DNA from: a virus
Strand: one strand, 5' to 3'
Virus record (IMG/VR): IMGVR_UViG_3300037189_010778
Span: 1-64,000 of that record
Length of the DNA stretch: 64,000 bases
The position numbers and the translations under genes are program-made. Below are positions 20,878-52,317 of the stretch, piece by piece (the stretch's first letter is position 1; the number at the start of each line of letters is the position of its first letter). The notes under the pieces were generated by a model that saw only the letters and a list, made by a program, of their open reading frames with translations, was not told the DNA's origin and ran no database searches.

Positions 20878-22152
20878 TTAATCTAAATAATCATCTACTA
20901 ATTTTTTCATAACTCTTGCTACATTTGAATTAACATCATATCTATCTCGAAAATAAGATACGTCTTGATCTATATCATTGTTGTGGCTATATTGTTCCCC
21001 ATCTTCAATTGTAAAATTTCTTACAAAATAATTAAATCCCCAATTGTTTTCCAAATCATCATGGATTTTATTCCACTCTTCTTTAGAATATTTTTTAAAA
21101 TCATCATAATATATGTCATTAGGATCTATTTCATCATAAGAATGAAATAAAGCCCATTCCCATATTTCATAATCCGAATTATATAAATCTGGGTAGTCTA
21201 TGAATTTGGCTAGATAGTTTATTAATTTACCTTCATTTTCATAACTTACATCTAATTTTAATAAAGAAGCAATACCAGGATCATTAACTCGCATTTCATT
21301 TACAGATCGATTAGAATAATTAATTATATATTTTTTAATATCATTTAAATTTAATATAATCATAACCCAAACAAATGTTCCTCCACCTTCACTGTCTGTA
21401 TAAAACTCTAATATTGGAATTTCATATTGTTTAAGTTTAGATATAAAAGATCTTAATCCATTTATGTTAAAATCAGGATTCTCAGATTCAATAGCATCCA
21501 TAATATTTTCATCACTATATCCAGCCATTATTTCAGGTTCATTATATATAGGAATAGTGAACATTAATTCTTTATCTTCATCCAATATATTACCATAATA
21601 TTCAACGTTATTTTTCTTATCAATGTATATTATTTCATCTTCATTTTCTTTTTTAAAAATAAGAGAAGAAGGTTCATTAACTCGCATTTCATTAATATCA
21701 GATTTTTGATCTTTGATCTTTTTTAAAAAATCTTCAACAGCATACTGATAAAGTTTTTGATCGTCCTTTACTTCTTTAAGTGCTTTTATATACTTGGGAT
21801 CATTTATATTTATAATATTTTTATTATTAACTGCGTGCTTTAACATGAGTTCATGACCTAAACGATTAGCATACCAGTTAAAATCTCTTTCATCATCAAT
21901 AAGATCACCTAATGTACCTTTATAACCAATTTGTTTAGCGATATCAAATGCTAAAACATTTGCCATTTCACCATCATAAAATTCACTCCAAAAATCCTCA
22001 GGATCGTCGGGTATTATATAATCATCCCAATATTCATCTAAGATATCTTTATAAAGATTATAATTAGTCCAACGATATTTATTTGGTTCATTAACTCGCA
22101 TTTCTGTTATAGGGATACCAGCCAATTTTTGCATGCGATAAAATTCACTCAT
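20878..22152 (-). CDS. Three-module protein with EMRVNEP cleavage-like junctions
   Basis: 424 residues. The leader MSEFYRMQKLAGIPITE precedes MRVNEP at residue 18. Two further junctions, INE-MRVNEP (M156) and VNE-MRVNDP (M287), divide it into modules of 138, 131 and 138 residues. All three junctions fit the gp21-type (I/L/V)-x-E rule. Module 1 contains LAFDIAKQIGYKGTLGDL and matches the body of the 147-residue protein at 24493, which carries a different leader. Modules 2 and 3 are acidic and aromatic-rich without a recognised fold. I infer a polyprotein packaged in the head and cut into three. AATATTTATA precedes the gene. Confidence 0.75.
   Translation of the reverse strand: MSEFYRMQKLAGIPITEMRVNEPNKYRWTNYNLYKDILDEYWDDYIIPDDPEDFWSEFYDGEMANVLAFDIAKQIGYKGTLGDLIDDERDFNWYANRLGHELMLKHAVNNKNIININDPKYIKALKEVKDDQKLYQYAVEDFLKKIKDQKSDINEMRVNEPSSLIFKKENEDEIIYIDKKNNVEYYGNILDEDKELMFTIPIYNEPEIMAGYSDENIMDAIESENPDFNINGLRSFISKLKQYEIPILEFYTDSEGGGTFVWVMIILNLNDIKKYIINYSNRSVNEMRVNDPGIASLLKLDVSYENEGKLINYLAKFIDYPDLYNSDYEIWEWALFHSYDEIDPNDIYYDDFKKYSKEEWNKIHDDLENNWGFNYFVRNFTIEDGEQYSHNNDIDQDVSYFRDRYDVNSNVARVMKKLVDDYLD
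21277..21303 (-). repeat. Junction repeat VNE-MRVNDP
   Basis: Codes for the third junction of the 424-residue protein; one mismatch from the 20-base consensus GGTTCATTAACTCGCATTTC (plus strand). Confidence 0.8.
21670..21696 (-). repeat. Junction repeat INE-MRVNEP
   Basis: Second junction of the 424-residue protein; carries an exact copy of GGTTCATTAACTCGCATTTC at 21671-21690. Confidence 0.85.
22084..22110 (-). repeat. Junction repeat ITE-MRVNEP
   Basis: First junction of the 424-residue protein, just after RMQKLAGIP; exact 20-base copy at 22085-22104. Confidence 0.85.
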
Positions 22153-25336: not shown

Positions 25337-25678
25337 TTATATTATCTCTACTCCTAAGTTTTCAAGAGCTGTTTCTAAATCACGAACATAAGAATAATTT
25401 AAACGATCAATTTGTTTAGCATATGGTCCTTTTTCATAAAAAAGAAAATCATATGAATTTTCAAGATTTATACCATACGCTTTAAGGGCAAGTTGTAGCA
25501 AAGATAACCATTCATCTGTTCCTGTTTCTACCGTACCATCATCTATTACTTCTGGGTATTCTTTTTGAATTAGTGCTTTTATTTGTGTAGCTTTATCAGG
25601 TGACTTAACTTGCATTTCATTAATGCCAGCTAATTTTTGCATGCGTTTAAATTCCTCGCTTAATATTTGTTTTTTCAT
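25337..25678 (-). CDS. Tagged protein, RMQKLAGI leader with EMQVKSP
   Basis: 113 residues. Leader MKKQILSEEFKRMQKLAGINE then MQVKSPDK, a diverged form of the MRVNEP junction with I-N-E before M22. The body has WLSLLQLALKAYGI and FYEKGPYAKQIDRL, mostly helical. No known family. AATATTTATA-type element upstream. Confidence 0.65.
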   Translation of the reverse strand: MKKQILSEEFKRMQKLAGINEMQVKSPDKATQIKALIQKEYPEVIDDGTVETGTDEWLSLLQLALKAYGINLENSYDFLFYEKGPYAKQIDRLNYSYVRDLETALENLGVEII

Positions 25679-26427: not shown

Positions 26428-27097
26428 ATGGAAAAAGTGCTATTGCCTCTGATGATACTGGTAAACCAAGAGAACTATGTGTTATTTTAATATATTCTTT
26501 ATCGTAAACTGTTTTTATACCTTTAGTTATAGTAAAATACTTATCCCAATTTATTTTTTGTAAATCAGCAAAATGTTTATATTGTTTACCTACCCTAACA
26601 TCATATGCATATTTAGACTTATGAGATAATATTACTGAAGGGTGAGTAAGTTTCATTGTATAACCATCGTAATTAACATGAACCACATCTTTTGGTTTTA
26701 AGTATTGACTATTAAACAAATCAATACTGTATTCTAATTTATCATCCTTATGTTTTTCTAACTGTATAAGTTCTTTATTAGTAAAATGTGGTATAGATTT
26801 AACTTTAGCGTATGCTAAATCAGGATTATCCTTTTCTGTTACCATATCATAATCTTCACTATCGGTAATTTTTACATTTAGTTGAAAAAAATCATGTAAT
26901 ATCCTTAAATCTTCTTCAATTAGTGTCTCTTTTAAACCTATGTCTATATCAGGAACACGTTCTGTAAAATTATATTCTATTATATCCATAATGTATAAAG
27001 ATAAACTACCAGCTAATATAAATTTATCGTTAATATTAAGCATAGGTATAATAATATCCTCATATTTTTGCGGAAGTTTGTTTATTTTGTATTCCAT
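26426..27097 (-). CDS. Nucleotidyltransferase-fold protein
   Basis: 223 residues. FILAGSLSLYIMDII (28-42) followed by VPDIDIGL gives the GS...DxD pattern of minimal nucleotidyltransferases (AbiEii/MNT-like). A further acidic residue is likely in YSIDLF. The rest has PSVILSHKSKYAYD and a tryptophan-containing NWDKYF motif. The start overlaps the stop of the VWA gene (TAATG), so translation is coupled. Substrate unknown; family members act on tRNA, proteins or small molecules, often in toxin-antitoxin or defence systems. Confidence 0.65.
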   Translation of the reverse strand: MEYKINKLPQKYEDIIIPMLNINDKFILAGSLSLYIMDIIEYNFTERVPDIDIGLKETLIEEDLRILHDFFQLNVKITDSEDYDMVTEKDNPDLAYAKVKSIPHFTNKELIQLEKHKDDKLEYSIDLFNSQYLKPKDVVHVNYDGYTMKLTHPSVILSHKSKYAYDVRVGKQYKHFADLQKINWDKYFTITKGIKTVYDKEYIKITHSSLGLPVSSEAIALFP

Positions 27098-28290
27098 TAT
27101 CTGTTAATTCTAATTTTAGCGCCTGGTAAATCTTGGTTAATATCATATCCTGAGCAGTGTACCCATAATATAGGTTTAATAGGATTTGTTTTAGGAGCAG
27201 GAGCACATCCATCAGTTAGATAAATTAGGTTAGCATATTTATCTTTATTTTCCATTAAGTATTGCATAACTGGTTCAAAATCAGTACCGCCTCTACCTTT
27301 TACTTCAATATTTTCCCTTTCACCTTTATAGTTGTAGACACGTTGTATAATAGCATCACATTCTACTATATCAACATAAGTACCTGTTTTATATATGTGA
27401 TAAATTTCATTAAAAAATTCAATTAAATCTTTTTGACTAACACTACCAGATGTATCTATAGCTACTAATGTTTTTTTCTTTTGTTTAATTTTTAATGCGG
27501 GGCCGCTTCCAAATCTACGATTTGGTTTACGTCTTGTTTTTTTAGTGTATACTATACTAGACATACTATTAAAACGTCGTAAATAAGATGTCCAATCAAT
27601 AACTGGTTCAATTACTTCAAATAAACTATCAATATAGTCTTGCATTTCTGTTGGTATTAATCCTCTGCCACGATTTTTTAGTTCATTAGCTACTTCTTTT
27701 AATTGATAATCTATTTGTTTAGCTATTAAATTACGTTCAGCTTCACCTAATCCTTCCATTGCCTTCCATAATTCATGTAAATCACCCATACCCTCACCAT
27801 TACCCATCCCTTCCATCATTTTAGCTAAATCTCCATCAGGATTTTCATCCATTTCTTTTTGAAGAGTATCATAATAGTATTTAGTTCCTTGCTTTTCTAA
27901 TAAATTTAATTCTTTAAATGGTGATTGATTAATTTCTAATCCTTCCCATTTATCTCCTTTCATATCTTCATTAATATATTGATTAATTTCTAGATCAGCT
28001 GCTATATTATATAACTGTTTATCTGGGAATCTGTCAAAATTATTTAAATGAAAAAAAGCAATATGTAATAATTCGTGTTTTAATACACCCATTTTTGTTT
28101 TTTCATCTAATAGTGTCCAATATTCAGGATTAACTACTAATTTAACATTAATATTTTCAGGAGTAACACACGCTGTTGATATGCTTGTGTTAAGTTCTTT
28201 ATTAAGAGATATAAGAAATAAGCCATAAAACGGTTCTTTTAACATAAGCGTTTTAGAACATTTAGTAATCTCTTGGTAGATTTTTTCCAT
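27097..28290 (-). CDS. VWA-like metallopeptidase-domain protein (DUF2201 type)
   Basis: 397 residues. N-terminal zincin-like KHELLHIAFFH (HELLH at 72-76) and IAADLEINQYI, followed by a helical glycine/methionine-rich linker. A C-terminal VWA-like domain has the MIDAS DTSGS at 279-283 and GGTD at 334-337. This is the architecture of proteins paired with MoxR-type AAA ATPases, and such an ATPase is encoded two genes upstream. By analogy the pair remodels or matures a target complex. Own host-type promoter. The nucleotidyltransferase is translationally coupled downstream. Confidence 0.8.
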   Translation of the reverse strand: MEKIYQEITKCSKTLMLKEPFYGLFLISLNKELNTSISTACVTPENINVKLVVNPEYWTLLDEKTKMGVLKHELLHIAFFHLNNFDRFPDKQLYNIAADLEINQYINEDMKGDKWEGLEINQSPFKELNLLEKQGTKYYYDTLQKEMDENPDGDLAKMMEGMGNGEGMGDLHELWKAMEGLGEAERNLIAKQIDYQLKEVANELKNRGRGLIPTEMQDYIDSLFEVIEPVIDWTSYLRRFNSMSSIVYTKKTRRKPNRRFGSGPALKIKQKKKTLVAIDTSGSVSQKDLIEFFNEIYHIYKTGTYVDIVECDAIIQRVYNYKGERENIEVKGRGGTDFEPVMQYLMENKDKYANLIYLTDGCAPAPKTNPIKPILWVHCSGYDINQDLPGAKIRINR

Positions 28291-29414: not shown

Positions 29415-30596
29415 TTATTTAACAATGTATGTTACTAAATTTTTATCTAACATCATTACTTTAAATTTGTTAGGATTATTATTATAGATTGATTTAACCA
29501 TATTATAACAAATATCAGAAGTGAATATTTGCTCATTTACAATTTTAGAAATTCTATCAATAATATTTTTCTCTACAGAATTAGTTTTTGAATATAAATC
29601 TAAATAATTAACAATACGTGTAGATAGAGTTGAAGCAATGTCTGCTCTATATTTAGTATCTTTACCTACTAAAGATTTTAAAGTATTAGTAACGTATTTT
29701 TCATCTTGTTCAAAAATATTTTGTGGAGAAATCATTTTATCTAGTTTATTATTAATAAACATTGTAAATAAACTACTAAATTCTTGACCTACACTACCTT
29801 CTCCAATCATTTGAATTAATGGTAATTGTTCTTCAAATGTTTTAATAGAAGAAATACTATTAAAAAACATCGATACACTTCTACTATTAACTTCTTTTGT
29901 GACTAATTCAGGATGCATAAGTAAGAAATTAATACATCGACCATCAATATGACTTTCTTCAGCCCATTTAGCCCAACAATCAATATCGAATTTTAATTGT
30001 ACTGAAATAAAACGTGTTTTTTGAGCGTTGTCAATACTATTTACTAAATAATCTCCATTATCAGGATTAGCGGTTAATATGATATGCCAATCTTTAGGTA
30101 ATGTCCAACTAATATATTGTTGACGATCAATTAATTCCATTATAGCTTGAATAAACCTTACATCAGCACGATTCCAGTCATCTAATAATAAAATTCCACC
30201 TTTTTCTTTATTAGCGATCCATTCTGGTGGGCAATAACTCATTCTATTATTACCGGTTGATTTGTAACCTAATTTATGGTACTCATCAAATGCATGTTCA
30301 TCAACCCAAATTTTTTCATCAGCTGTTTCTACTTCAAATTGGCGAATAGGAAAACCAACTAAGTCACCAATTTCTTCAATTTGAGCTAAATTTAATTTAA
30401 CAAAATGTAAATTTTCTTCTTTAGCTAATTGAATAATTTGAGAAGTTTTACCAATACCTGATTCACCAATTACTTCAATACTTACTGGTGGTTTGCTTTG
30501 TTCTTGTAAAAAGCGATTATTCTCAATAATGTGTTTGAGAAATGTTTTTAATTCGTTTGGATTAACATAAACCAAATCTTTTGATTTCTTTGCCAT
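29415..30596 (-). CDS. MoxR-like AAA+ ATPase
   Basis: 393 residues from MAKKSKDLVY at 30596; a longer frame to 30644 would overlap the promoter. Walker A GESGIGKT at 44-51, Walker B GGILLLDDWNRAD near 133-145, sensor-1 ILTANPDNGDY, and an arginine-finger candidate in AQKTRFISV. Typical of MoxR/RavA-group ATPases that work with VWA proteins such as the one at 27097. Driven by a host-type promoter. Likely acts in the cytoplasm as a chaperone-like remodelling factor. Confidence 0.85.
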   Translation of the reverse strand: MAKKSKDLVYVNPNELKTFLKHIIENNRFLQEQSKPPVSIEVIGESGIGKTSQIIQLAKEENLHFVKLNLAQIEEIGDLVGFPIRQFEVETADEKIWVDEHAFDEYHKLGYKSTGNNRMSYCPPEWIANKEKGGILLLDDWNRADVRFIQAIMELIDRQQYISWTLPKDWHIILTANPDNGDYLVNSIDNAQKTRFISVQLKFDIDCWAKWAEESHIDGRCINFLLMHPELVTKEVNSRSVSMFFNSISSIKTFEEQLPLIQMIGEGSVGQEFSSLFTMFINNKLDKMISPQNIFEQDEKYVTNTLKSLVGKDTKYRADIASTLSTRIVNYLDLYSKTNSVEKNIIDRISKIVNEQIFTSDICYNMVKSIYNNNPNKFKVMMLDKNLVTYIVK

Positions 30597-30613
30597 ATTT
30601 TTTTTATTTTTAC

Positions 30614-30645
30614 TAAATATAAGCAAGAAATCTTTAAAAACCAAA
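30614..30645 (-). promoter_or_regulatory. Host-type promoter for AAA ATPase gene
   Basis: TTTG at 30642-30645, 20-base spacer, TATATTTA at 30614-30621, and the ATG at 30596 lies 17 bases further. Its location rules against the upstream ATG at 30644. Confidence 0.75.
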
Positions 30646-30915: not shown

Positions 30916-31572
30916 TTAGTAGTATTGCCAGTAAATATCGTTAGGACCTAATTTTATTTTATATAAGCGTGGGTTTGTAGGATCACCGTAAAGCAATTCG
31001 GGATCTAATGATATGTATGCTCTATTATCATCACCATCATCTAGCATTATATCATCACCACTGTTCCAAAAACCATATTGTTCTATATCAGCTCTATACC
31101 ATCCGTTTAATACATTACTCCAAGATGGTTCATCATCTCTTTTCCATTCAGGTGTATTCCAAAGTGCGTCTACTAAGATTTTTTTAAATGATGGATTTAA
31201 CACCATATAATTAGCTAGTTGATCATTATTTTTGAATTTAGGTATAGGTTTATTAACCCGCATTTCATTTACAGGTTGTTTATCTAGTATTACTCCATAA
31301 TTCAATAGAAATTCTATAAATGAATCAACATTTCCTTCCCAATAATCTTTTTCTTTGATAAATTTATATGCTTCACGTTTTCTTAATGTTTTATTATCAC
31401 GTGACGCCACTTTAAACAGATAGATAGCATCAGATGTATCTTCATCAAAATCATACCTAATATCATCCCAGTCTTGATCTAACCATTTTTCAAATTCAGG
31501 ATTAAGATAATATATTTTATCATCAGGAAAATTAATCCGCATCTCATTTAATACATTTATTAATTTTATCAT
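30916..31572 (-). CDS. Two-module tagged protein
   Basis: 218 residues. Leader MIKLINVLNE then MRINFPDD; a second junction VNE-MRVNKP near residue 104 starts module 2. Module 1 is acidic and helical (YEF-like: KWLDQDWDDIRYDFDED). Module 2 is W/Y/D-rich (PEWKRDDEPSWSNVLNGWY, ending DIYWQYY). Both junctions fit (I/L/V)-x-E. No known domain; presumed packaged and cut in two. Confidence 0.7.
   Translation of the reverse strand: MIKLINVLNEMRINFPDDKIYYLNPEFEKWLDQDWDDIRYDFDEDTSDAIYLFKVASRDNKTLRKREAYKFIKEKDYWEGNVDSFIEFLLNYGVILDKQPVNEMRVNKPIPKFKNNDQLANYMVLNPSFKKILVDALWNTPEWKRDDEPSWSNVLNGWYRADIEQYGFWNSGDDIMLDDGDDNRAYISLDPELLYGDPTNPRLYKIKLGPNDIYWQYY
31246..31272 (-). repeat. Junction repeat VNE-MRVNKP
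   Basis: Internal junction of the 218-residue protein; two mismatches from the 20-base consensus, coding the same hexapeptide pattern. Confidence 0.8.
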
Positions 31573-31584
31573 GATCGTTGATAT

Positions 31585-32238
31585 TTAATAGTTATGACAG
31601 TATAAAGTGTAATCGCCTTCTCCTATGTAAGATATTTCAATTTTTTTATAGCAAACGTTAGTAGTTATAGTAGTACCGCTTTTATCTCCAAAAATTTCAA
31701 AAAGTATTTCATTTGGTTTAAAACGAGTATAATATGATAATATATATTTTTTAGCTTCTTTTCCGTCTTCACTTAATTGATCTTCATCATTGTAAAAACT
31801 CCATTCATTTATTAAAAAATCATCTAATGAATCATAACCAAAACTTTTATAAAGTTCTTGTAGTGATGAATTACTTGTTATATAAGCTAACAAATATGGT
31901 TTTTTATCTATAAAATAATCCAAAATCTGTTCTTTAGAAAGAGATATAGGTTTATTAACTCGCATTTCACTTAAAGCTTCAACAGGTTCATACCAGTTTG
32001 TACAGTATTCATCAGCGGCATATGGTATCTTGTTAGTGCCAGCCCATTCAGCATAATATGTGTTATTACATACTTGATCTTCTTTATTCCACCATTTACA
32101 ATTAGCACAGCATGAACCTCCTTTAGGTACTTTCATTCCAGCTTTATGACTATCTGGTAGTTCCATAGGGCCAGGACCACCATATTCTTCTTTTAATTGT
32201 TGTTGTATTAGGTAATTAGTTATGTTGAATTGTTTCAT
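31585..32238 (-). CDS. Two-module protein: cysteine-rich (HiPIP-like) module plus tagged module
   Basis: 217 residues. N-terminal helix MKQFNITNYLIQQQLKE ends L-K-E. Then comes a cysteine-rich segment, KGGSCCANCKWW...VCNN...YCTNW (about 40-82). Its Cys spacing and aromatic surroundings resemble small high-potential iron-sulfur proteins. The junction LSE-MRVNKP (near residue 92) begins a helical second module (LSKEQILDYFIDKKPYLLAYI). The cluster assignment is uncertain; a zinc site is equally possible. Confidence 0.65.
   Translation of the reverse strand: MKQFNITNYLIQQQLKEEYGGPGPMELPDSHKAGMKVPKGGSCCANCKWWNKEDQVCNNTYYAEWAGTNKIPYAADEYCTNWYEPVEALSEMRVNKPISLSKEQILDYFIDKKPYLLAYITSNSSLQELYKSFGYDSLDDFLINEWSFYNDEDQLSEDGKEAKKYILSYYTRFKPNEILFEIFGDKSGTTITTNVCYKKIEISYIGEGDYTLYCHNY
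31948..31974 (-). repeat. Junction repeat LSE-MRVNKP
   Basis: Internal junction of the 217-residue protein; one mismatch from the 20-base consensus. Confidence 0.8.
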
Positions 32239-32242
32239 ATTT

Positions 32243-35200
32243 TTATGATTCTGTTAAATCGTTCATGTTATATATTCTGTTATAATCTTCTTGTTTTTCA
32301 GGCATACCTGATGAAAGATATACATTGTTTCCTAACATAGAATCACCAGATATGTTATCTTTTATGACGTTACCTTCTGCATCCATTATAACCCAAGATT
32401 CATAGTACATATTATCCTTATTAGATTTAGGAAGTAAAACATACTTTTTACCTTTATCATTAATAATAAACGGTACAGCGAATAATAAAGTACTATATTT
32501 TGTATTTTGATTGAATTTTTCAACTAAATTAATTATTGTTTTTCGTTCAGAAGTTGATAATTTACGCCATTGTTCTTCATCTATAGGGACTGGGTTTACT
32601 TCTTGTGTAGGCATTGCGTTTCTATTTTCTAAATCTTCACTACTTATATTAGTTCCTTCTTCATAAATCCATGGTTCAAATAATTTAATATATAATTCAT
32701 ATAATTGTTTAAGTTTTGGGTCACTAATATAATCAATAGCTTCTGGTGGGAGGAAATCAAGTTCTTTAGCCATTTTATTAACGTATGTTTTAGCAGCGTC
32801 TTCACCAAAATATTTTTTAATATATTCAAAAGATAAACTATCTTTTTCAAAAATATCTAAATATTGTTGTTTTTCTTCATCACTTAAATATTCAATAAAA
32901 GGTAAAGGTACAATGGTAGTTGATGTTTTACCTTGTTTATAGTCATCTAAAGCTCTAGTAAATCTAAATTTAGCATAACTTCGTGATAAAGCTTTACTAT
33001 CTTTCAAATCGTTATATGTAGGTTTATATCCAGTACCAGTTCGTAAAGCTAAATTTTTTAATTCTGGATCTAGGATTTTAAACATAGCACTATTAAATGC
33101 ATTTGGTTGATCTGCTCTATTAGCGATATATATTCTTTTTTGATTTCTGTTTAAATCTTTAAACATATTGAAATCTAAAATTTTATCTCTTACTAAAGCT
33201 TGATCAGTTTCTTCTTCAGATGGAGGGACATATTTAAATACATCTTTAAGATTTTTTATTTTTTCCCAAGCTTGTTTTCCACTTTCACCTCCATTTTTTA
33301 TCATAAATTGTCCCACTTCATCCCAAGACATTCCTTTATCATTTCCAGTAGCTTCATGATTTGAACCCCATTGATTTACAGTATCTGTCACTCCAAATTT
33401 ACCATTTTGGAAAGCATGTATTACAAAAAAGTGATACCAATTTATAAAATTTTCTCTATTTGATGGATTACCTTTTATATCCGCATTTTGAGTAGAATCT
33501 GCTACAAAATAAAAACTTCTAAATGCTCCACCTCGACCAAAACGATATGTGTAATATTGATTTGATGCTTCTTCTTTTCTACCTATACAAAATCCGTAAG
33601 AATAAATTTTATTATCTTCTCCTTTATATTTAAAAGCATAATTTAATTTAATACAACCACCGTAATCACTTCCTTCATAAATTTTAAGCCCATTATTGTT
33701 ATATACTACTGGTACTCCTTTTATATCAATAAGTTCAGCATCTTGAATTGTACTAAAATCTTTTGATGATTTTTCAGCTTTTCCACCATAAGCGTCTAAA
33801 ACAGTTTCTAAATCTTTCCAAGTATAATTTAAAATATCTTGTGGGTTTAAAATTTTATTAGTTTTAGGATCAGGTTCAGTAAATTTCTTAGGTACTATTA
33901 TTCCTCCAGCTTCTCCTTTAAGTCCTGCTTGTATTTTTTTAGGGAGATTTTGTTTAATTTGATCAAATCTATTTAACTTTTCTTTAATATCATCTTTTGA
34001 CAGAGTATTTTTCATTTCTTTTTGAAATTTTTCTGTCATTTGATTAATAATCTTTTCAGAGTACTCATTTAATTGAGTTCTTTTTGATTCTCTTAAATCT
34101 TTAAATTCTTTTGTTTTATATACTTTATCTATTTGTATTTCTCTATCATCAAATACTATTCTAACATTACCACCATAATGTGTATTTCCATCTATTCCAG
34201 CTCTTAATAAGAATAAAGAGGTATCTTTAGGAGGATTTTTAGATTTTTTTCCATAAAAATTTTCTATAGTATGATAAACTTTACTACCTATCATAGATGT
34301 ATTTATATTAACATCCACATTATCTTTTTGGGCTTGTTTATTAATTTTATCAACTTGATATTGAGGAATAGGACCATCCCAATTTAAATAATCAGGAGTT
34401 TTATTAGGAAATAATGTAACTTTATATATATAATGCATTGATTCCTGTTCTACTTCTAGATCTTTAATAATTTCTATAAATTTACGGTAGTTATCTAATA
34501 CTTCTTCTTTACTTTCAAAATCAGGTTCTTCTTCAAGAATAGAAATCATGTCTTCTGCATATTCTATATATTCTTTAGCTGTTTTTAGTCCTTGCGGTAA
34601 TCCAAAAAATACTTCATTTTCATATTCTAAACCTAATTCTTCAGCAGTTTTACCTTGAAATAATGTTTTAAACCTATGGGGTGTATTTATAGATAAAGCA
34701 TATCCTTTAACCATTTCTGGATTTTTTCCGAAATATAAACCCCATCCAATTACTTGTATTCCTGTTCCCCCACCCATTCCTTCACTGTGAAATTGTCTAA
34801 AATAATTTGGTGAACCATGCCATGCCTCTTCATTTTCATTTAATGGTTTAGTTTTATCTATTTTAGAAAATGTTTTTTTAATTTCTTTATTAAATGATTC
34901 AAGAAATATTTCAGCAAAAGTTTGTTTATGCATATTTTCTTTTTTTATCGGTTTTAGTTTTTTTATTAAATTTTCTCGTGCCCAAAATCTTTGACCAGTT
35001 TTATCATCATCTATTAAATACCAAGGAATACCATCTTTTTCAGTGTAATATCTGTTATAATCTTTAGATAAGGTTAATGTTTCATTACCTAATGATACTT
35101 TTTCTCCTGGGTAGAATTTTTTAGGCTCATTAACTCGCATTTCAACTAATGGAGCGTATTTTCTAATTAATGACATAGCTACCGACCTAGGTTCCCAAGA

Positions 35201-36079
35201 ATCAGGATTGTTTCTATCTATATGAGGAGTATCCATATATGGGGGAGGGTTAGTTATAGCACTTGTCGATACTACTTTTAAGTTATTATCTTCTTGCTCT
35301 GCTTTTTTAGACCAACGTGCTACATTCCATCCAGTAAATGCAGCTATTATTTTTTCTTTAGATAAATCTATTAAATAATTTTCTGGTTCACGATATGTTA
35401 ATTTTGGGATTTGTTTATAGTCATCATATGAGTGAATTTCTCCGTATGCCTTTTCATATTTGAACGGTTCATTAACTCGCATTTCCTTAATAACATCTGT
35501 TTTTTTAAATTCTCCTATCAAATATGATTCAAAATCATTATCATCAATAACATCAGCAAGATAAAATGAGTAGCAATCATTATTATTTATAACTTCATCT
35601 ACAGAATATTTTACACTTTTTGTTGTATATATTTCATCATCATAATCTATAATATCTTTTTTAACTTGGGCAAGAGCACTTCTAAATAAACAATCTATAT
35701 CTACATTTTCTTCATAGAATTTAGTTATTAATTTGTATAGATAGTTTTTTAAGTTAGGATTAATTTCAAGATATTCTTTAATATTTTCTTCATCTATCAG
35801 ATCTTCATTATTATATGATAAAAGTATTTCTTCACCATCTTTAAATATCTCATGATTATTAAAGATCATTTGATCTATTATAAAAGATTTGAGTACATCA
35901 TATTGTTCAATTAAATAATCTAAATCAATACCATCAGATTCAAATGTATCTATTACGCGTAAAACTACATAATCTTTAATTTTAGATATTATTTCAGGAG
36001 AAATACCATAAGTAAGAGATTTGGGTTTATTAACCCTCATCTCATTTAAAAATTTATCAGTCAGTTTAAATTCTATCAT
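32243..36079 (-). CDS. Giant modular tagged protein with ADP-ribosyltransferase-like domain
   Basis: 1278 residues, start overlapping the nucleotidyltransferase gene by 14 bases. Junctions LNE-MRVNKP (M14), IKE-MRVNEP (M200) and LVE-MRVNEP (M314) mark early modules. A fourth leader-like helix (MHKQTFAEIFLESFNKE) ends at PLNE (about 412-415). Next comes AWHGSPNYFRQFHSEGMG...GWGLYFGKN (about 419-453), an ART-type motif as in polyvalent ADP-ribosyltransferase-like phage domains, to about 655. After QLNE at 669-672 the 600-residue C-terminal module has KIYEGSDYGGCIKLNYAF and YYTYRFGRGGAFRSFYFV, a block recurrent in environmental phages. T4 packages Alt, an ADP-ribosyltransferase, in its head; this may be the modular counterpart. 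Confidence 0.8.
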   Translation of the reverse strand: MIEFKLTDKFLNEMRVNKPKSLTYGISPEIISKIKDYVVLRVIDTFESDGIDLDYLIEQYDVLKSFIIDQMIFNNHEIFKDGEEILLSYNNEDLIDEENIKEYLEINPNLKNYLYKLITKFYEENVDIDCLFRSALAQVKKDIIDYDDEIYTTKSVKYSVDEVINNNDCYSFYLADVIDDNDFESYLIGEFKKTDVIKEMRVNEPFKYEKAYGEIHSYDDYKQIPKLTYREPENYLIDLSKEKIIAAFTGWNVARWSKKAEQEDNNLKVVSTSAITNPPPYMDTPHIDRNNPDSWEPRSVAMSLIRKYAPLVEMRVNEPKKFYPGEKVSLGNETLTLSKDYNRYYTEKDGIPWYLIDDDKTGQRFWARENLIKKLKPIKKENMHKQTFAEIFLESFNKEIKKTFSKIDKTKPLNENEEAWHGSPNYFRQFHSEGMGGGTGIQVIGWGLYFGKNPEMVKGYALSINTPHRFKTLFQGKTAEELGLEYENEVFFGLPQGLKTAKEYIEYAEDMISILEEEPDFESKEEVLDNYRKFIEIIKDLEVEQESMHYIYKVTLFPNKTPDYLNWDGPIPQYQVDKINKQAQKDNVDVNINTSMIGSKVYHTIENFYGKKSKNPPKDTSLFLLRAGIDGNTHYGGNVRIVFDDREIQIDKVYKTKEFKDLRESKRTQLNEYSEKIINQMTEKFQKEMKNTLSKDDIKEKLNRFDQIKQNLPKKIQAGLKGEAGGIIVPKKFTEPDPKTNKILNPQDILNYTWKDLETVLDAYGGKAEKSSKDFSTIQDAELIDIKGVPVVYNNNGLKIYEGSDYGGCIKLNYAFKYKGEDNKIYSYGFCIGRKEEASNQYYTYRFGRGGAFRSFYFVADSTQNADIKGNPSNRENFINWYHFFVIHAFQNGKFGVTDTVNQWGSNHEATGNDKGMSWDEVGQFMIKNGGESGKQAWEKIKNLKDVFKYVPPSEEETDQALVRDKILDFNMFKDLNRNQKRIYIANRADQPNAFNSAMFKILDPELKNLALRTGTGYKPTYNDLKDSKALSRSYAKFRFTRALDDYKQGKTSTTIVPLPFIEYLSDEEKQQYLDIFEKDSLSFEYIKKYFGEDAAKTYVNKMAKELDFLPPEAIDYISDPKLKQLYELYIKLFEPWIYEEGTNISSEDLENRNAMPTQEVNPVPIDEEQWRKLSTSERKTIINLVEKFNQNTKYSTLLFAVPFIINDKGKKYVLLPKSNKDNMYYESWVIMDAEGNVIKDNISGDSMLGNNVYLSSGMPEKQEDYNRIYNMNDLTES
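35123..35149 (-). repeat. Junction repeat LVE-MRVNEP
   Basis: Third junction (M314) of the 1278-residue protein; one mismatch from the 20-base consensus. Confidence 0.8.
35465..35491 (-). repeat. Junction repeat IKE-MRVNEP
   Basis: Second junction (M200) of the 1278-residue protein; exact copy of the 20-base consensus at 35466-35485. Confidence 0.85.
36023..36049 (-). repeat. Junction repeat LNE-MRVNKP
   Basis: N-terminal junction (M14) of the 1278-residue protein. Confidence 0.75.
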
Positions 36080-36443
36080 AATACTTTAAATCTTCTATAT
36101 GTTTTTCTTTACTAATATTTTTCTCTCTTAGTTTCCATTGATAGATTTCATCAGCGGGAGATAATTTTAGTACATGTCCGTTATAAATATATTCAATATA
36201 TTTAGCTTGCGGATTTATAAACAAATCAAATAAAAGATTTTCGTATCTATATTTTTTTATTAAACGGTGTTGCAATTTATCAACACCAAATAATTCATAT
36301 ATGTGAATACGTTTTGTTGATATAATGTCTATATCTTTAGGTTCACGATATGGGATAATTCCTTGTAATATTAAAGAAACACTTCCACCAATGTATATAT
36401 CTGGATGTGTTTGTTGGAATTTAGTTAAAACATCTTTAATCAT
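36066..36443 (-). CDS. Small nucleotidyltransferase-fold protein
   Basis: 125 residues. YIGGSVSLILQGIIPYREPKDIDII gives the GG/GS...DxD signature of the nucleotidyltransferase fold; a third acidic residue is likely in ENLLFDLFI, and LKLSPADEIYQWK follows. Second such gene in the window and unrelated in sequence to the one at 26426 outside the motif. No targeting leader. Lies between two tagged genes with no gap on the upstream side. Confidence 0.65.
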   Translation of the reverse strand: MIKDVLTKFQQTHPDIYIGGSVSLILQGIIPYREPKDIDIISTKRIHIYELFGVDKLQHRLIKKYRYENLLFDLFINPQAKYIEYIYNGHVLKLSPADEIYQWKLREKNISKEKHIEDLKYYDRI

Positions 36444-37172
36444 TTAAAATACTTCCGGATTTTCTTTATAGTCTTTATAGCTTACAGTTAAGAACCCTTT
36501 ATTATTAAACTCACTAAGAGTTCTTGAATAATCTTCATCCCATAGTGGTTCCTTATAACTTATACCATCATTGTGTCTTTCTACTAAATATTCTTCTCCA
36601 ACATAATATCCATAAGCTATAGTAAATTTATTTGTACCTAATTGATTATATAAAGTCACAAATGGGAGTAATACATCTTCTATATCATCTTTTATTTCTT
36701 TTAAAGACATCAATTCTTCTTTATCTGGTTCTACTATTATATGATCACCTTCTATGTATGGTAATTCTTCTTGTGATTGCCAATAATCAGTACTATTATT
36801 AGCGTCTAAAATATATTTTAATATGCCTTGATTATCATTGTTATTATAATAGTCAACTAATGTTAATGCATCATTTTTAGTTAAAGTATCTTCAAATATG
36901 TCACTTATTGGTCCTTTCATAAATCTATATAGATCTTTAAAACCATAATACCCACCAGCTAAATAATTAATATCTTTTTTTAATTCATTAACTACATTTT
37001 GTAATGTGTCATTATATTCACTAAATCTTCCACCCATTTCAGAATCAGAATATATAAATTCTACTATTATATCTGCGTCAACATCTGTATAAGATTCACT
37101 AGTAGCTTTTATATACAATACGCCAGGTTCATTAACCCGCATTTCATTTAATATATCTATTAATTTAATCAT
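36444..37172 (-). CDS. Tagged protein, MIKLIDILNE-MRVNEP
   Basis: 242 residues. The archetypal leader MIKLIDILNE precedes MRVNEPG; a single acidic module follows (VDADIIVEFIYSDSEMGG, LTLVDYYNNNDNQG). No known family. The leader resembles, as I recall it, the T4 Alt N-terminus MELITELFDE in length, hydrophobic spacing and terminal acidic residue. Presumed packaged in the head and trimmed after E10. Confidence 0.7.
   Translation of the reverse strand: MIKLIDILNEMRVNEPGVLYIKATSESYTDVDADIIVEFIYSDSEMGGRFSEYNDTLQNVVNELKKDINYLAGGYYGFKDLYRFMKGPISDIFEDTLTKNDALTLVDYYNNNDNQGILKYILDANNSTDYWQSQEELPYIEGDHIIVEPDKEELMSLKEIKDDIEDVLLPFVTLYNQLGTNKFTIAYGYYVGEEYLVERHNDGISYKEPLWDEDYSRTLSEFNNKGFLTVSYKDYKENPEVF
37125..37151 (-). 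repeat. Junction repeat LNE-MRVNEP
   Basis: N-terminal junction of the 242-residue protein; one mismatch from the 20-base consensus. Confidence 0.8.
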
Positions 37173-37174
37173 AA

Positions 37175-38638
37175 TTAAATTCTATTTCCGTCCTCATCAA
37201 AGTTTTTAACATCTGGATAATACTTTCCAGAGCTATCAAACCATCCAACATATCTATCTTCGTCTTGACCAGCATATGGGCTATATACTGTTATTTCTTG
37301 ATTTTTCCTATCAATATTTACGGCAGTATAATAAGCATCGGGTGGTGCACCTAGGGCTGTACTGTAAGCAAATATGTCTTTTGTTACATGCGTTCCAGGT
37401 GATTTTTTAAGTAGATGACGTATTGCTAATAACGCTTTACTATCTTCATCTAAATCTTCATAATCTTTTAATCTGTATGTTTCACGCGCAGGTTCATATA
37501 AATCAAAACCATAATCTGATTCTCCAAAATACTCTACTAATACCCATAATGCTTCTTCATCTTTATTTGTTAATTGTCCTGGAATGTTAATCCGCATTTC
37601 TTTTACAGGAATACCCGCTAGTTTTTGCATGCGTTTCATTTCATCCAAACCTTCTAAACCAGTATCATCTTTTTTAAGATCAGAGTTTATATCACGCATA
37701 GTATAAAACGCCCATCTTTTTTGCTCATTTGTTAATTCATCATTGATAGCATTTTCAACAAATGAATAAAATTCATCATAATCTGCTATTTTATACAATT
37801 CAGCTAAAAATAAATCTCTAACACGAGGATCATCAAATTCAGACTCTACCCATATTTTAGTTATATTATTGTATATATATTGCCCAAATCTTATATCATC
37901 TAATTCATTTTTATATGTATCAACTTGATTAGTGACTTTTTTAGCTTCTTCTCCACCTGATTCTTTACGTTTAGGAAAAGATACATTTACTCTTCCTACT
38001 CCTTCTAATTGATCACCATAACGATCAATAACTTGCAATAATTTAGCTATTTGATTTTCATCATGATATCCACCAAATATATCATCCATAACTTGAGCAT
38101 AATCATCAGTTAATTCAGGATTAATAAGATCTAAATAATCTTTGTAATTATAATGACTGAATGCTCCTCGTACTGCTCCACCTTGTGTTATACTATTTAT
38201 GATACGTCTTTTTTCAGGAGAAACCTTATTATGGTAAGCTTGTTTAGATATAATCTCATATAATCCTTTAGCTATTTCATGCATTAAAATAGGAAATACT
38301 AATCCTCGAGCGTGAATTACAATATCATGTTTTTTTAGTAATTCTGGGTCAGTTTGGTATGGTTTTCCTAATTTGGTATCTTTTCCTAATTTAGCATCTA
38401 TACCTATCCCAGCATAGTCTATTACAGGATATACTTCTTTAGCTATTTGAACAGCTAAAGCTTCTAATTCATCCTTATAATCTGCTTCTGCTGCTTCTAA
38501 TTTATTTACTAAACTAAACGCGTTAGCCTGCATTTGTCCAGGTGATCTTCCTTTTAAAACTTTACTAAGAGTATCTTTAGATTTTCCTTTAAGTGTACCT
38601 AAAGTTTTAGGTGAGAATATATTTTTGTATTCAGCCAT
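37175..38638 (-). CDS. Two-domain protein with internal RMQKLAGI/EMRIN tag
   Basis: 487 residues. The N-terminal domain (1 to about 330) has LVFPILMHEIAKGLYEII (a MHEIxKG motif common in phage proteins) and a Q/G-rich segment ending GGYHDENQ. A complete tag, MKRMQKLAGIPVKE then MRINIP (M348), sits in mid-protein and is followed by a 140-residue acidic domain. A full leader in mid-protein suggests fusion of an untagged gene with a tagged one; cleavage after E347 would free the second domain. MHEIAKG is not a complete HExxH. Confidence 0.7.
   Translation of the reverse strand: MAEYKNIFSPKTLGTLKGKSKDTLSKVLKGRSPGQMQANAFSLVNKLEAAEADYKDELEALAVQIAKEVYPVIDYAGIGIDAKLGKDTKLGKPYQTDPELLKKHDIVIHARGLVFPILMHEIAKGLYEIISKQAYHNKVSPEKRRIINSITQGGAVRGAFSHYNYKDYLDLINPELTDDYAQVMDDIFGGYHDENQIAKLLQVIDRYGDQLEGVGRVNVSFPKRKESGGEEAKKVTNQVDTYKNELDDIRFGQYIYNNITKIWVESEFDDPRVRDLFLAELYKIADYDEFYSFVENAINDELTNEQKRWAFYTMRDINSDLKKDDTGLEGLDEMKRMQKLAGIPVKEMRINIPGQLTNKDEEALWVLVEYFGESDYGFDLYEPARETYRLKDYEDLDEDSKALLAIRHLLKKSPGTHVTKDIFAYSTALGAPPDAYYTAVNIDRKNQEITVYSPYAGQDEDRYVGWFDSSGKYYPDVKNFDEDGNRI
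37580..37633 (-). repeat. Internal complete tag RMQKLAGIPVKE-MRINIP
   Basis: Codes the whole leader-plus-junction inside the 487-residue protein, matching the N-terminus of the gene at 22152 in 14 of 18 residues. Confidence 0.8.
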
Positions 38639-38935: not shown

Positions 38936-39637
38936 TTATTTTGTTTTGCCCCATTTTTTGCCTTTACCTTTTGTTTTACATTGGGCTGGTGTAGGGCGAC
39001 ATGATGGATATTTAGAGCGTTTTTCTCCTGCTTTTCTTCCACATGCCTTACATTTAGGTTTACCTCCTTCATTATGACATGTATTACAATCAACCCATCC
39101 ACCTTCTTTACCTGATGGGCCTTGACGTTTAAACCATTTATGAAGTGATTCGTCTTCTTTTAAATCTTTCCAAATTTTACCTTGGCGACATCTAACAATA
39201 GCACCTGATTTGTAAGCCGAGGGTTTATCATATCTTTTATCAGCAATACGTTTACAGCGATCTTCTTTTTCTTGTAATACTTCCTTAATTAATTTTTGTA
39301 TTATACTTTCATTAACTATAATAGGATTAGAAACATATTTAGCACCTCTAACATCAGGTAATTTTTTAATATCTGATAATATTTTATCATATGATTTACT
39401 ATCAAATGGATTAAAAGGTGATGGATCTATTTTAAGACTAAGCTTAACAAAGTGTCTACCTTGTTCTGTATTATAATCTGAAGCTATAGTATCAACTATA
39501 GTCACTCCAGGAACGGCACGTATATCAGATATTACATCCGCTATTGGTCTATTTCCAGCTGTAATAGCTACATTACAATTAATTTGATAGACATTTGGAT
39601 TATATGATTCGTTTATTAAATCAGTAATTTTAATCAT
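38936..39637 (-). CDS. Tagged protein with C-terminal Cys-rich phage domain
   Basis: 233 residues. Leader MIKITDLINE then SYNPN. An alpha/beta domain to about 110 is followed by a second internal leader (SIIQKLIKEVLQE, 111-123). The C-terminal cysteine-rich domain contains LHKWFKRQGPSGKEGGWVDC, CKACGRKAGE and YPSCRPTPAQC. This last domain occurs widely in phage and giant-virus proteins (a DUF5872-like pattern). The cysteines probably bind zinc. AATATTTATA lies 3 bases before the start. Confidence 0.65.
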   Translation of the reverse strand: MIKITDLINESYNPNVYQINCNVAITAGNRPIADVISDIRAVPGVTIVDTIASDYNTEQGRHFVKLSLKIDPSPFNPFDSKSYDKILSDIKKLPDVRGAKYVSNPIIVNESIIQKLIKEVLQEKEDRCKRIADKRYDKPSAYKSGAIVRCRQGKIWKDLKEDESLHKWFKRQGPSGKEGGWVDCNTCHNEGGKPKCKACGRKAGEKRSKYPSCRPTPAQCKTKGKGKKWGKTK

Positions 39638-41513: not shown

Positions 41514-42806
41514 TTATCTTTTACCTCTAAATTTATTGAAAAAATCAATTATGTCTTGTGGTGTGGTTTTTTCATTAATAACTAATTCCTCTTCTTTAGC
41601 TGTTTCCTTTCCAGGTATACCTGTAGCAAAGGTATTACCATAGAGTTTAATATTAGCTGCTTTATTTACTTCCCAATATTGGCCTCCTTTAAAATTAACA
41701 TAGTTTATCTTACTTACTCTATTTTTTAATTCTTTATTTTTTTGTATAGCGATATCACTTATAAATAATTTTTCTCCATTAGAATTATGAATAGCATATT
41801 CTTTAGGCACAGGGATAATTTTTATTTTATATCCACTACCTGAATGACCTATTTGGCCTACTTTACCTACATAATCAGGATCGTCAGAAGCTAGTTCTTT
41901 AGCGTATTTTTGTAATTCACTTTTATCAGAATCATTCATTAATAATTCTACTTTAAAATCTGGATTGTTGCGTATACTTTTAAGTAATGCTCTATCTGAC
42001 GCTGTTCCTAATACTGATTTAGCTTGAGATATAAGTTGTTGTTTTAATGCTTCCGCAGTTCTTATAGTGTATGGAAGTATTCTGTATGCTGTTCCACCAT
42101 CTGTTGTTATTTTAAATAAGTAAAATTGATTTTTTACATCACTAGGTACTGGTTCTTTTCCACCTCTTGGTGTACCTTTTTTCTTATAAAATGATGGTCT
42201 ATCTTCAGGGCGATCATATATTTTTTTTCTACCCATCTCATCTATAGACTCAACCTCATTCTCAATATCTTCATTTTTATCTATAGTAAAAGAATCTGTA
42301 ACTTTACCATTAGTTAAAATTAAATTTATATCATCACCCTCTTGTCTTTTATTTATTACTTTTACTTTTTCTCCTTTTTTAAACTTACCTAAATTACCCC
42401 CTAATATAAAAGTATCTCCAGTTTTAATAAACATGACTTTATCTTCTTTTACAAGTTTAGCTTGTAATTCATCAGGTAATTTAGTTTGTTTTCCTTTTAA
42501 TTTAGGATTATCATCATACTTACGAGTAAATGTGGTTTCTGATTTTATTTTTGATGGAGATGTAAGAATTTTAATATCATCTATATCTAAACCTTGTTTT
42601 GGATTTTTATCTGTACCAAAAACAACACCTGCAGCATTTAACCATTTATCAGTTATTTTAAGTTCATCACCTACTTTGATATCTTCATATCCTCGAGGTA
42701 ATGACTTACCTTGAAATTCTTGTGGATTTATATTTGTTACTTTAATAGTAGTACCAACTTTTGGTTCTTTTAAATTTTCTATTAATAGTTTAACTAATTG
42801 GATCAT
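41514..42806 (-). CDS. Tagged multi-domain protein with beta-barrel segments
   Basis: 430 residues. Leader MIQLVKLLIENLKEP (L-I-E at 8-10). Residues 15-190 contain repeated short beta modules of KOW/SH3-like flavour (VGDELKITDKWLNAAG, KKGEKVKVINKR). A basic linker follows, then an alpha/beta domain with QFYLFKITTDGGTAYRILP and a C-terminal region. No enzyme motif recognised. The start overlaps the upstream stop (ATGA). The leader suggests packaging. Confidence 0.6.
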   Translation of the reverse strand: MIQLVKLLIENLKEPKVGTTIKVTNINPQEFQGKSLPRGYEDIKVGDELKITDKWLNAAGVVFGTDKNPKQGLDIDDIKILTSPSKIKSETTFTRKYDDNPKLKGKQTKLPDELQAKLVKEDKVMFIKTGDTFILGGNLGKFKKGEKVKVINKRQEGDDINLILTNGKVTDSFTIDKNEDIENEVESIDEMGRKKIYDRPEDRPSFYKKKGTPRGGKEPVPSDVKNQFYLFKITTDGGTAYRILPYTIRTAEALKQQLISQAKSVLGTASDRALLKSIRNNPDFKVELLMNDSDKSELQKYAKELASDDPDYVGKVGQIGHSGSGYKIKIIPVPKEYAIHNSNGEKLFISDIAIQKNKELKNRVSKINYVNFKGGQYWEVNKAANIKLYGNTFATGIPGKETAKEEELVINEKTTPQDIIDFFNKFRGKR

Positions 42807-50851: not shown

Positions 50852-51361
50852 TTACATATAAATATTACCTTCAACACCCGGTGCCATTTGTCTAATTTCT
50901 TCTTCGGTATGTGATTTGGAAAGTGGAGTATTACTTAAAGAAAGATAATCTTTAACTTCTAAATTAGGAGGTAATGATGCGATTAGAGTATCACTTAAAT
51001 GAAGACTCCATCCAACTTTTAAATCAGGAGGTAATGATGTAATTGGGGCACCAATTAAATAAAGATCACCTCCAACATTTAAACCAGGAGGTAATGATTT
51101 AATTGGGGTACCACGTAAATCAAGATTACCTCCAACTTCTAAATCAGAAGGTAATGACATAATTAGAGTATCACGTAAATCAAGATTACCTCCAACTTTT
51201 AAACCAGGAGGTAATGATTTAATTGGAGTATCCATTAAATTAAGATCACCTGTTCCTCCATTTCTTATGTAATCTCTTGCTTGTTGATTGGCTAGTTGGA
51301 GTGGAGTTAATTTAGGTGGGTTAACTCTCATTTCTTTCAGTATGTCAAGTAATTTTATCAT
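50852..51361 (-). CDS. Tagged leucine-rich repeat protein C
   Basis: 169 residues from MIKLLDILKE at 51361 (an upstream ATG would overlap the preceding gene). Leader then MRVNPPKLTPLQ, a helical linker (ANQQARDYIRNGG), and six 20-residue repeats of the form NLDLRGTPIKSLPPGLKVGG. These are like the short LRRs of bacterial effectors such as IpaH or YopM. A cap follows (LSKSHTEEEIRQM). Third of three tandem paralogues. Ligand unknown; the repeats indicate protein binding. Confidence 0.75.
   Translation of the reverse strand: MIKLLDILKEMRVNPPKLTPLQLANQQARDYIRNGGTGDLNLMDTPIKSLPPGLKVGGNLDLRDTLIMSLPSDLEVGGNLDLRGTPIKSLPPGLNVGGDLYLIGAPITSLPPDLKVGWSLHLSDTLIASLPPNLEVKDYLSLSNTPLSKSHTEEEIRQMAPGVEGNIYM
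50867..50876 (-). promoter_or_regulatory. AATATTTATA element at end of LRR gene C
   Basis: Coding strand AATATTTATA encodes the NIYM end of LRR protein C and lies 28 bases before the GIY-YIG start. Confidence 0.4.
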
Positions 51362-51362
51362 G

Positions 51363-51869
51363 TTATATAAATATTGCACTTTTGATACCTGGTGACATTA
51401 ATCTAATTTGGTCTTCTGTATGTGATTTAGCAAGTGGGGTATTATATAAAAAAAGACTACCCCAAACTTCTAAATCAGGAGGTAATGATGTGATTAGTGT
51501 ATTGTGTAAATTAAGATAACTTCCAACTTTTAAGCCAGATGGTAATGATGTGATTGGAGCATTAATTAAAGAAAGACTACCTTCAATTTCTAAATTAGGA
51601 GGCAATGATGTAATAGGAGTATTATCTAAAGAAAGGCTACCTTCAACTTTTAAATCAGGAGGTAATGATGTGATTAAAGTATCATCTAGACTAAGTTTAC
51701 CTCCAACCTTTAAGCCAGAAGGTAATGATTTAATTGGAGTATATGCTAAACCAAGATCACCTATTCCTCCATTCCTTATGTAATCTCTTATTCTATTCTG
51801 AGCTGATTGGAGTGGAGTTAATTTCATATTAACTCTCATTTCATTCAATATATTTATTAGTTTTATCAT
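51363..51869 (-). CDS. Tagged leucine-rich repeat protein B
   Basis: 168 residues from MIKLINILNE at 51869. Leader, MRVNMKLTPLQ, then six 20-residue repeats (SLDNTPITSLPPNLEIEG type) and the SHTEDQIRLM cap. Paralogue of the flanking LRR genes over its full length. The stop lies 1 base from the next start, and its last codons (AIFI) contain the AATATTTATA element of the following gene. Confidence 0.75.
   Translation of the reverse strand: MIKLINILNEMRVNMKLTPLQSAQNRIRDYIRNGGIGDLGLAYTPIKSLPSGLKVGGKLSLDDTLITSLPPDLKVEGSLSLDNTPITSLPPNLEIEGSLSLINAPITSLPSGLKVGSYLNLHNTLITSLPPDLEVWGSLFLYNTPLAKSHTEDQIRLMSPGIKSAIFI
51366..51375 (-). promoter_or_regulatory. AATATTTATA element (LRR gene C)
   Basis: Coding strand AATATTTATATAAC then ATG at 51361; doubles as codons of the preceding gene. 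Confidence 0.45.
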
Positions 51870-51870
51870 A

Positions 51871-52317
51871 TTATATAAAAATTTCACCTTCAACTCTAGG
51901 TATCATTTGTTTAATTTGTTCTAGGGTGTGTGATTTAGAAAGTGGAGTATTACTTAAACTAAGATAACCTTTAACCTTTAAATCAGAGGGTAATGATGTG
52001 ATTAAAGTATCACTTAAATTAAGATTACCCCCAACTTTTAAACCAGGAGGTAATGATGTAATTGGAGTATAATATAAATAGATATGACCTCCAACTTTTA
52101 GATTAGGAGGTAATGATTTAATTGGTGTATTTTCTAAATCAAGATTACCTCCAACCTTTAAGCCAGAAGGTAATGATCTAATTGGTGTATTTTCTAAATC
52201 AAGATTACCTACTTCCCCATTTTTTATGTAATCTCTTATTCTATTTTGAGCTAATTGAAGTGGAGTTAATTGTGTATTAACTTTCATTTCTTTTAATATG
52301 TCGAGTAGTTTTATCAT
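51871..52317 (-). CDS. Tagged leucine-rich repeat protein A
   Basis: 148 residues. Leader MIKLLDILKE then MKVNTQLTPLQ, five 20-residue repeats (NLDLENTPIKSLPPNLKVGG) and the cap LSKSHTLEQIKQM. First of the trio, 1 base after the last tail gene. The common architecture of leader, LRRs and cap across three tandem copies suggests diversification for different targets. Confidence 0.75.
   Translation of the reverse strand: MIKLLDILKEMKVNTQLTPLQLAQNRIRDYIKNGEVGNLDLENTPIRSLPSGLKVGGNLDLENTPIKSLPPNLKVGGHIYLYYTPITSLPPGLKVGGNLNLSDTLITSLPSDLKVKGYLSLSNTPLSKSHTLEQIKQMIPRVEGEIFI

Follow-up and report, generated by a model that had tools for sequence, protein, structure and literature searches.

A predicted head-cargo polyprotein with an ADP-ribosyltransferase-family domain in an uncultured T4-like phage

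The 64,000-nucleotide stretch of viral DNA analysed in this study (hereafter the window) comprises positions 1 to 64,000 of the 75.8-kb IMG/VR record IMGVR_UViG_3300037189_010778 and encodes, at 32243-36079 on its minus strand, a protein of 1278 residues that is here named P1. P1 looks like a set of fused capsid-cargo genes in which the processing sites have been kept, because related phages split the same modules into separate, tagged genes at the junction positions. It is probable (about 0.72) that P1 is a head-cargo polyprotein, which would be targeted to the prohead by its N-terminal tag, cut by the gp21-type protease of the phage and ejected with the DNA, one of its parts being an ADP-ribosyltransferase (ART). 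The split orthologues, as recognized by sequence comparison, are the strongest new evidence.

Junctions of P1 and their counterparts in related phages

The plus strand at the P1 locus is full of stop codons. In the protein, EMRVN occurs at E13-M14, E199-M200 and E313-M314, and LNE at residues 413-415 and 670-672, while the ART-type motifs AWHGSPNYF and GWGLYFGKN lie at residues 419-427 and 445-453. A preliminary description, made from the sequence alone, had reported this open reading frame (ORF) with its three EMRVN junctions, two LNE sites and two ART motifs, and all of them are confirmed here. A near-identical longer contig (G001, 160.9 kb) carries a 100% identical P1 and the same tags at matching coordinates.

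Three phages were informative for comparison: L003, an independent phage with a fused P1 homologue of 1500 residues, and L091 (contig G003) and L092, two related phages with split genes. In both L091 and L092, the ART domain is a gene of 275 residues, and the gene that follows it encodes the C-terminal module (660 residues in L091, 652 in L092). Each of these split genes opens with an [LI]xE-containing peptide of its own, the homology to P1 setting in at the junction positions. The correspondence of the ART gene start with the P1 junction is clear in L092; the N-terminus in L091 is longer and the site less exact. Another large phage carries a separate 252-residue ART gene, starting MKALIKQLLRE/ELTAYH (the slash marks the predicted cut), near a separate gene for the C-terminal module. 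The same pattern of fused and split genes was found for five other cargo proteins of the window (those starting at 30916, 31585, 37175, 38936 and 41514). Across the six proteins there are eight fusion boundaries, each at a distance of 0-7 residues from an [LIV]xE site, whereas random positions in the same proteins are 30 residues away on average; the observed distances sum to 20 versus approximately 243 for random positions, a closeness that no draw out of 20000 matched.

The residues after the glutamate differ among relatives in the same arrangement, being IEVGIP in L003 and IKINxP in L092. An internal translation start at the methionine of EMRVN was considered and rejected, since the related phages have isoleucine there (IEVG, IKIN). 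L003 carries four further IEVG junctions behind the C-terminal module, two of them before a duplicated module, suggesting that fusion continued in another lineage. At L003:8400-9694, a module of approximately 80 residues is duplicated in tandem, with LxE/IEVG before each copy.

The junction motif is also far from random in the genome. In minus-strand ORFs of the 160.9-kb contig, EM[RK][VI]N occurs 14 times (mean 0.06 and maximum 1 after shuffling of residues), spread over nine proteins between 20.9 and 52.3 kb, and all 14 sites are directly preceded by [LIV]xE. Moreover, [LI]xE has its glutamate exactly at residue 10 in 13 ORFs, whereas shuffled sequences gave 1.8 and never reached 13 in 2000 trials; these ORFs are mostly located in the 31-52 kb block and mostly have the form MIxLxxLLxE. 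The ten-residue N-terminal tags MIKLxxILxE thus have glutamate at position 10, like the capsid-targeting sequence of T4. In T4, gp21 cuts after [LI]xE, and the processing residues of the IPIII capsid-targeting sequence are 8 and 10 (PMC9026906). The match of the tags to T4 is specific, because both length and terminus agree with the T4 sequence. An N-terminal peptide of approximately ten residues ending in [LI]xE, as in T4-type capsid-targeted proteins, is thus present in P1 (residues 1-13) and in the 13 ORFs, and the gp21-type protease is encoded in the same genome (13237-13854), which is T4-like and also has genes for a gp23 capsid protein, a gp20 portal and a large terminase. [LI]xE is common (656 sites), and the plain LNE sites of P1 are not significant alone; they are supported because both coincide with gene starts in relatives. 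Together, the fused and split orthologues, the T4-type protease and the T4-length tag strongly support the earlier proposal of junctions and packaging tags.

By capsid protein, the closest annotated relative is the cultured Flavobacterium phage vB_FspM_immuto_2-6A (52.6% identity), which infects Flavobacterium sp. LMO8 and whose 160-kb genome has many tag-like N-termini; no homologue of P1, of the ART domain or of the C-terminal module was found in it by tblastn. The host is probably a Flavobacterium-type bacterium. A second class of tag, EFxRMQKLAGI..E, was observed before or at cleavage-like sites at 20878-22152, 25337-25678 and 37175-38638 (minus strand) and at 141741-142190 of G001, and is also present in immuto and L092.

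Table 1 Parts of P1 and other head and predicted cargo genes of the window. Slashes mark predicted cuts; residue numbers refer to the protein of the row.
Feature	Position	Strand	Remarks
P1, predicted head-cargo polyprotein, 1278 aa	32243-36079	minus	ORF; 1500-aa fused homologue in L003
Capsid-targeting-like N-terminal propeptide, residues 1-13 (MIEFKLTDKFLNE/)	36041-36079	minus	[LI]xE at 11-13; genome-wide class of such N-termini
Junction 1, LNE/MRVNKP, residues 11-19	36023-36049	minus	
Module A, residues 14-199	35483-36040	minus	relative only in L003, ~31% identity
Junction 2, IKE/MRVNEP, residues 197-205	35465-35491	minus	
Module B, residues 200-313	35141-35482	minus	no relative found outside this phage
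Junction 3, LVE/MRVNEP, residues 311-319	35123-35149	minus	
Module C, residues 314-415	34835-35140	minus	no relative found in related contigs compared
Junction 4, LNE/NEE, residues 413-418	34826-34843	minus	equals N-terminal LKE/EEK of separate L092 ART gene
ART-PolyVal domain, residues 416-655	34115-34834	minus	predicted catalytic H421, Y449, D644
Junction 5, LNE/YSE, residues 670-675	34055-34072	minus	equals gene starts LQE/YTD (L091) and LLE/YSE (L092)
C-terminal module, residues 673-1278 (606 aa)	32246-34063	minus	separate tagged genes in other large phages
gp23-type major capsid protein	10149-11930	minus	N-terminal LLE/G site; Pfam E 4.3e-75
T4 gp21-type prohead protease (Peptidase_S77)	13237-13854	minus	Pfam E 9.6e-29; PHROG head maturation protease 1.6e-58
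Predicted three-module cargo protein	20878-22152	minus	junctions at residues 17, 155, 286, all E/MRVN
Predicted fused cargo protein	30916-31572	minus	tags at residues 10, 103; L003 encodes the second module in separate tagged genes
Predicted fused cargo protein	31585-32238	minus	junction ALSE/MRVN (residue 91); first half a separate gene in L092, G003
Small nucleotidyltransferase-like protein (GGSVSLILQG...DIDI)	36066-36443	minus	overlaps P1 start
Predicted tagged cargo protein, MIKLIDILNE/MRVNEP	36444-37172	minus	
Second predicted fused cargo protein	37175-38638	minus	junction ...RMQKLAGIPVKE/MRIN (residue 347); split into two genes in relatives
Predicted fused cargo protein	38936-39637	minus	junction LIKEVLQE/KEDR; halves separate in L003, L092
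Predicted fused cargo protein	41514-42806	minus	middle module separate in L003, L092, G003; flanks LVKE/D, SIDE/M
Three tandem paralogues, predicted cargo	50852-52317	minus	each MIKLxxILxE/M[RK]VN

The ART domain and the other modules

Residues 416-655 are supported, at the family level, as a member of the ART-PolyVal family (Tox-ART-HYD2 clade) by sequence profiles and a predicted structure, in line with the ART-like domain of the preliminary description. An alignment of the domains from the window and L003, used as query, retrieved 79 loci, nearly all in ORFs of approximately 1000-6000 residues, that is, in giant polyvalent phage proteins. Among 55 aligned relatives, PF18760 (ART-PolyVal) was matched by 52 at E <= 0.01 (best E 8.2e-11), DUF3990 by 37 and PARP by 12. 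ARTs of the H-Y-D type have the histidine in strand 1, the tyrosine in strand 2 and the aspartate in strand 5 (PMC5512222). P1 retains all three residues: H421 and Y449 are invariant in the family alignment and lie in predicted strands 417-423 and 447-451, and D644, conserved in at least 90%, lies just after strand 639-642. The AlphaFold2 model of the domain has a mean predicted local distance difference test score (pLDDT) of 87.6, and 29 models in BFVD match it at E <= 1e-3, several of them named ART-PolyVal.

The parallel to the packaged and injected T4 enzyme Alt drawn in the preliminary description stands as one of role, not of descent, because Alt belongs to another ART family, the domain of P1 falling in the H-Y-D polyvalent clade. 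Homology to Alt was rejected, as no Alt/VIP2-family Pfam match was found among the 55 relatives.

The C-terminal module (residues 673-1278) is conserved at 63-65% in L003, 52% in L091 and 46-48% in L092, and its first 300-400 residues occur in many large phages with genomes of up to 595 kb. Standalone genes for the module in other large phages open with a short peptide, for example MKLSHIFKDLLNE/DFK; the start MK...[LI]xE/DFK is nearly universal, with L095 (FLE) as the exception among the genes listed, and its place matches LNE/YSE of P1. The model of the module has a pLDDT of 77.8 and a predicted template-modelling score of 0.58, but nothing in the PDB matched it significantly and neither Pfam nor PHROG gave a convincing match for the module; a search of bacterial genomes for the module found none. 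Searches of viral contigs with modules A and B retrieved only the same phage, though L003 carries module A. The L092 gene just upstream of the ART gene was considered as a counterpart of module A and rejected, being unrelated on comparison. Polyvalent proteins have at least two distinct biochemical domains per chain; P1 has the ART domain, the distinct 606-residue module and three small modules, one of these five parts having an assigned activity.

Proposed packaging and processing of P1

We propose that residues 1-13 would target the chain into the prohead core, where the gp21-type protease would cut after the glutamate of the [LIV]xE sites at residues 13, 199, 313, 415 and 672, removing the tag and freeing about five mature proteins inside the head. 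The mature parts would be ejected with the DNA, and one of them, an H-Y-D-type ADP-ribosyltransferase to judge from its sequence family, would act on host proteins, probably modifying them early in infection. In the simplest account, such a chain arose when genes that each already carried a targeting and cleavage peptide were joined end to end, the old N-terminal sites becoming internal junctions, so that a single N-terminal signal would bring the whole chain in and each head would receive equal numbers of each part. The earlier idea of a polyprotein delivering several effectors is supported in part, with just one module having an identified activity.

Several points weigh against this proposal. 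[LI]xE is a short, common motif, P3 is valine instead of leucine or isoleucine at several junctions outside P1, and the fusion boundaries were read off alignments when the tags had already been recognized, so that the boundary statistic calls for some reserve. The ART copy of the window alone has a Pfam E of 0.019, below the curated cut-off, as is the L003 copy (3e-4), so its ART-PolyVal membership rests on its relatives. Foldseek of the ART model against PDB gave no match at E <= 1e-3, and sequence searches of PDB with P1 and with the ART family alignment gave nothing significant; the fold claim therefore rests on the sequence family and on predicted viral structures.

The alternative that survives best, though unlikely, is that P1 is packaged via its N-terminal tag and injected intact, the internal MRVN sites being buried linkers or fusion relics. 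Very long single chains are the usual form of polyvalent ART proteins, DarB of phage P1 (~250 kDa) is packaged via an N-terminal signal (PMC9024508), and processing sites can persist as relics. However, every junction of P1, like its homologous counterparts in L003, has kept [LIV]xE, whereas most internal junctions have lost the remainder of the tag helix, suggesting selection for a cut site rather than a linker.

Cleavage by a different protease, at assembly or after injection, is improbable. A candidate lies just downstream of P1 (27097-30644), where a DUF2201 metallopeptidase-vWA protein and a MoxR-like AAA ATPase are encoded at 27097-28290 and 29415-30644 on the minus strand. This pair resembles a chaperone pair proposed for virion assembly in jumbo phages; a MoxR and vWA-metallopeptidase pair has been proposed to process jumbo phage structural proteins (PMC7824862), and zincin processing has been proposed for polyvalent proteins (PMC5512222). 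The junctions, however, carry exactly the glutamate-ended [LIV]xE at which a gp21-type protease would be expected to cut, and the N-terminal tags, 10 residues long, fit the geometry of the T4 capsid-targeting sequence. We give equally little credence to the view that these ORFs encode non-packaged early proteins whose N-terminal peptides serve another role: the block shares its strand with the head genes and adjoins the terminase and portal genes, and the tag fits the T4 targeting sequence in length and terminus. Least probable of all, EMRVN would be a DNA-level repeat or recombination site moving modules between genes, its coding content being incidental; the MRVN sites do appear to be copies of one another related by DNA descent, because their arginine codons are CGA or CGG in 10 of the 13 listed sites versus approximately 10% in genome usage, but relatives keep the place and the [LI]xE with a different sequence (IEVG, IKIN), neither the reading frame nor the preceding [LIV]xE is lost in any case, and no EMRVN repeat was seen in non-coding or out-of-frame positions. 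When the tag was searched as DNA in other viral contigs, one further match (L130) was found, apparently by chance.

Relation to known systems and other genes of the phage

The head-cargo polyprotein proposed here shares features with several known systems. With the ART-PolyVal polyvalent proteins (Iyer et al. 2017, PMC5512222), P1 shares the sequence family, the H-Y-D residues, the multidomain context and the predicted injection with DNA, but its ART domain lies in a T4-like cargo chain with gp21-type junctions, whereas those proteins are unprocessed or metallopeptidase-containing giants. With T4 Alt and IPI-III (PMC9026906), it shares the T4-type protease and capsid, the 10-residue [LI]xE tag and an ART as probable head cargo, but differs in the ART family, in having several cargo units per chain and in the genome-specific MRVNxP kept after the cut. 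DarB of phage P1, likewise a large polyvalent protein, is packaged by means of a short signal at its N-terminus; its domains are unrelated, and serial internal junctions are not reported for it in the parts of the source consulted (PMC9024508). The ejection proteins of SPN3US and phiKZ are also head cargo, and a gp21-like protease that cleaves after glutamate matures them, but there the identified cuts remove propeptides, and the consulted parts of that account do not report release of several mature domains per chain (PMC10052503).

Packaged ARTs (PMC9503650) and multi-step prohead cleavage (PMC10052503) are already known, as are polyvalent ART proteins and T4 targeting sequences, and Iyer et al. 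compared polyvalent proteins to polyproteins whose parts are released by peptidases embedded in the chain (PMC5512222). In a limited literature search, neither the cutting of a cargo polyprotein at serial gp21-type junctions nor a genome-specific post-cut motif was found to have been reported. As a tentative but quite conceivable generalization, this group of phages may have a modular cargo-polyprotein system, in which effector genes are fused end to end, each fusion keeping [LIV]xE, often with MRVNxP, IEVGIP or IKINxP, and the prohead protease releases several effectors in a fixed ratio inside one head. The post-cut motif may serve recognition or ejection and would then mark head cargo genome-wide. 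With a rule of [LIV]xE plus a genome-specific motif, proteins that are probably injected could be recognized in uncultured T4-like phages, nearly all of whose genes of this kind are unannotated. The proposal would also link polyvalent ART proteins with the T4 capsid-targeting and gp21 system, the two being mostly discussed apart, and suggests that a prohead protease can work in the way that RNA viruses use their polyprotein proteases.

The small nucleotidyltransferase-like gene that overlaps the P1 start is syntenic with the ART and C-terminal module genes in L092 and G003, and its product may be a second effector. The tandem paralogues at 50852-52317 carry leucine-rich-repeat-like LPxxLKVGGxLxL repeats. 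In immuto, gp079 (L128 14007-16532, 841 residues) also has the look of cargo modules fused together, with tag-like helices inside the chain. On G001, genes resembling those for a sugar epimerase, a glycosyltransferase and an aminotransferase, judged by eye from N-terminal sequence, form a block at 99111-115436 on the minus strand.

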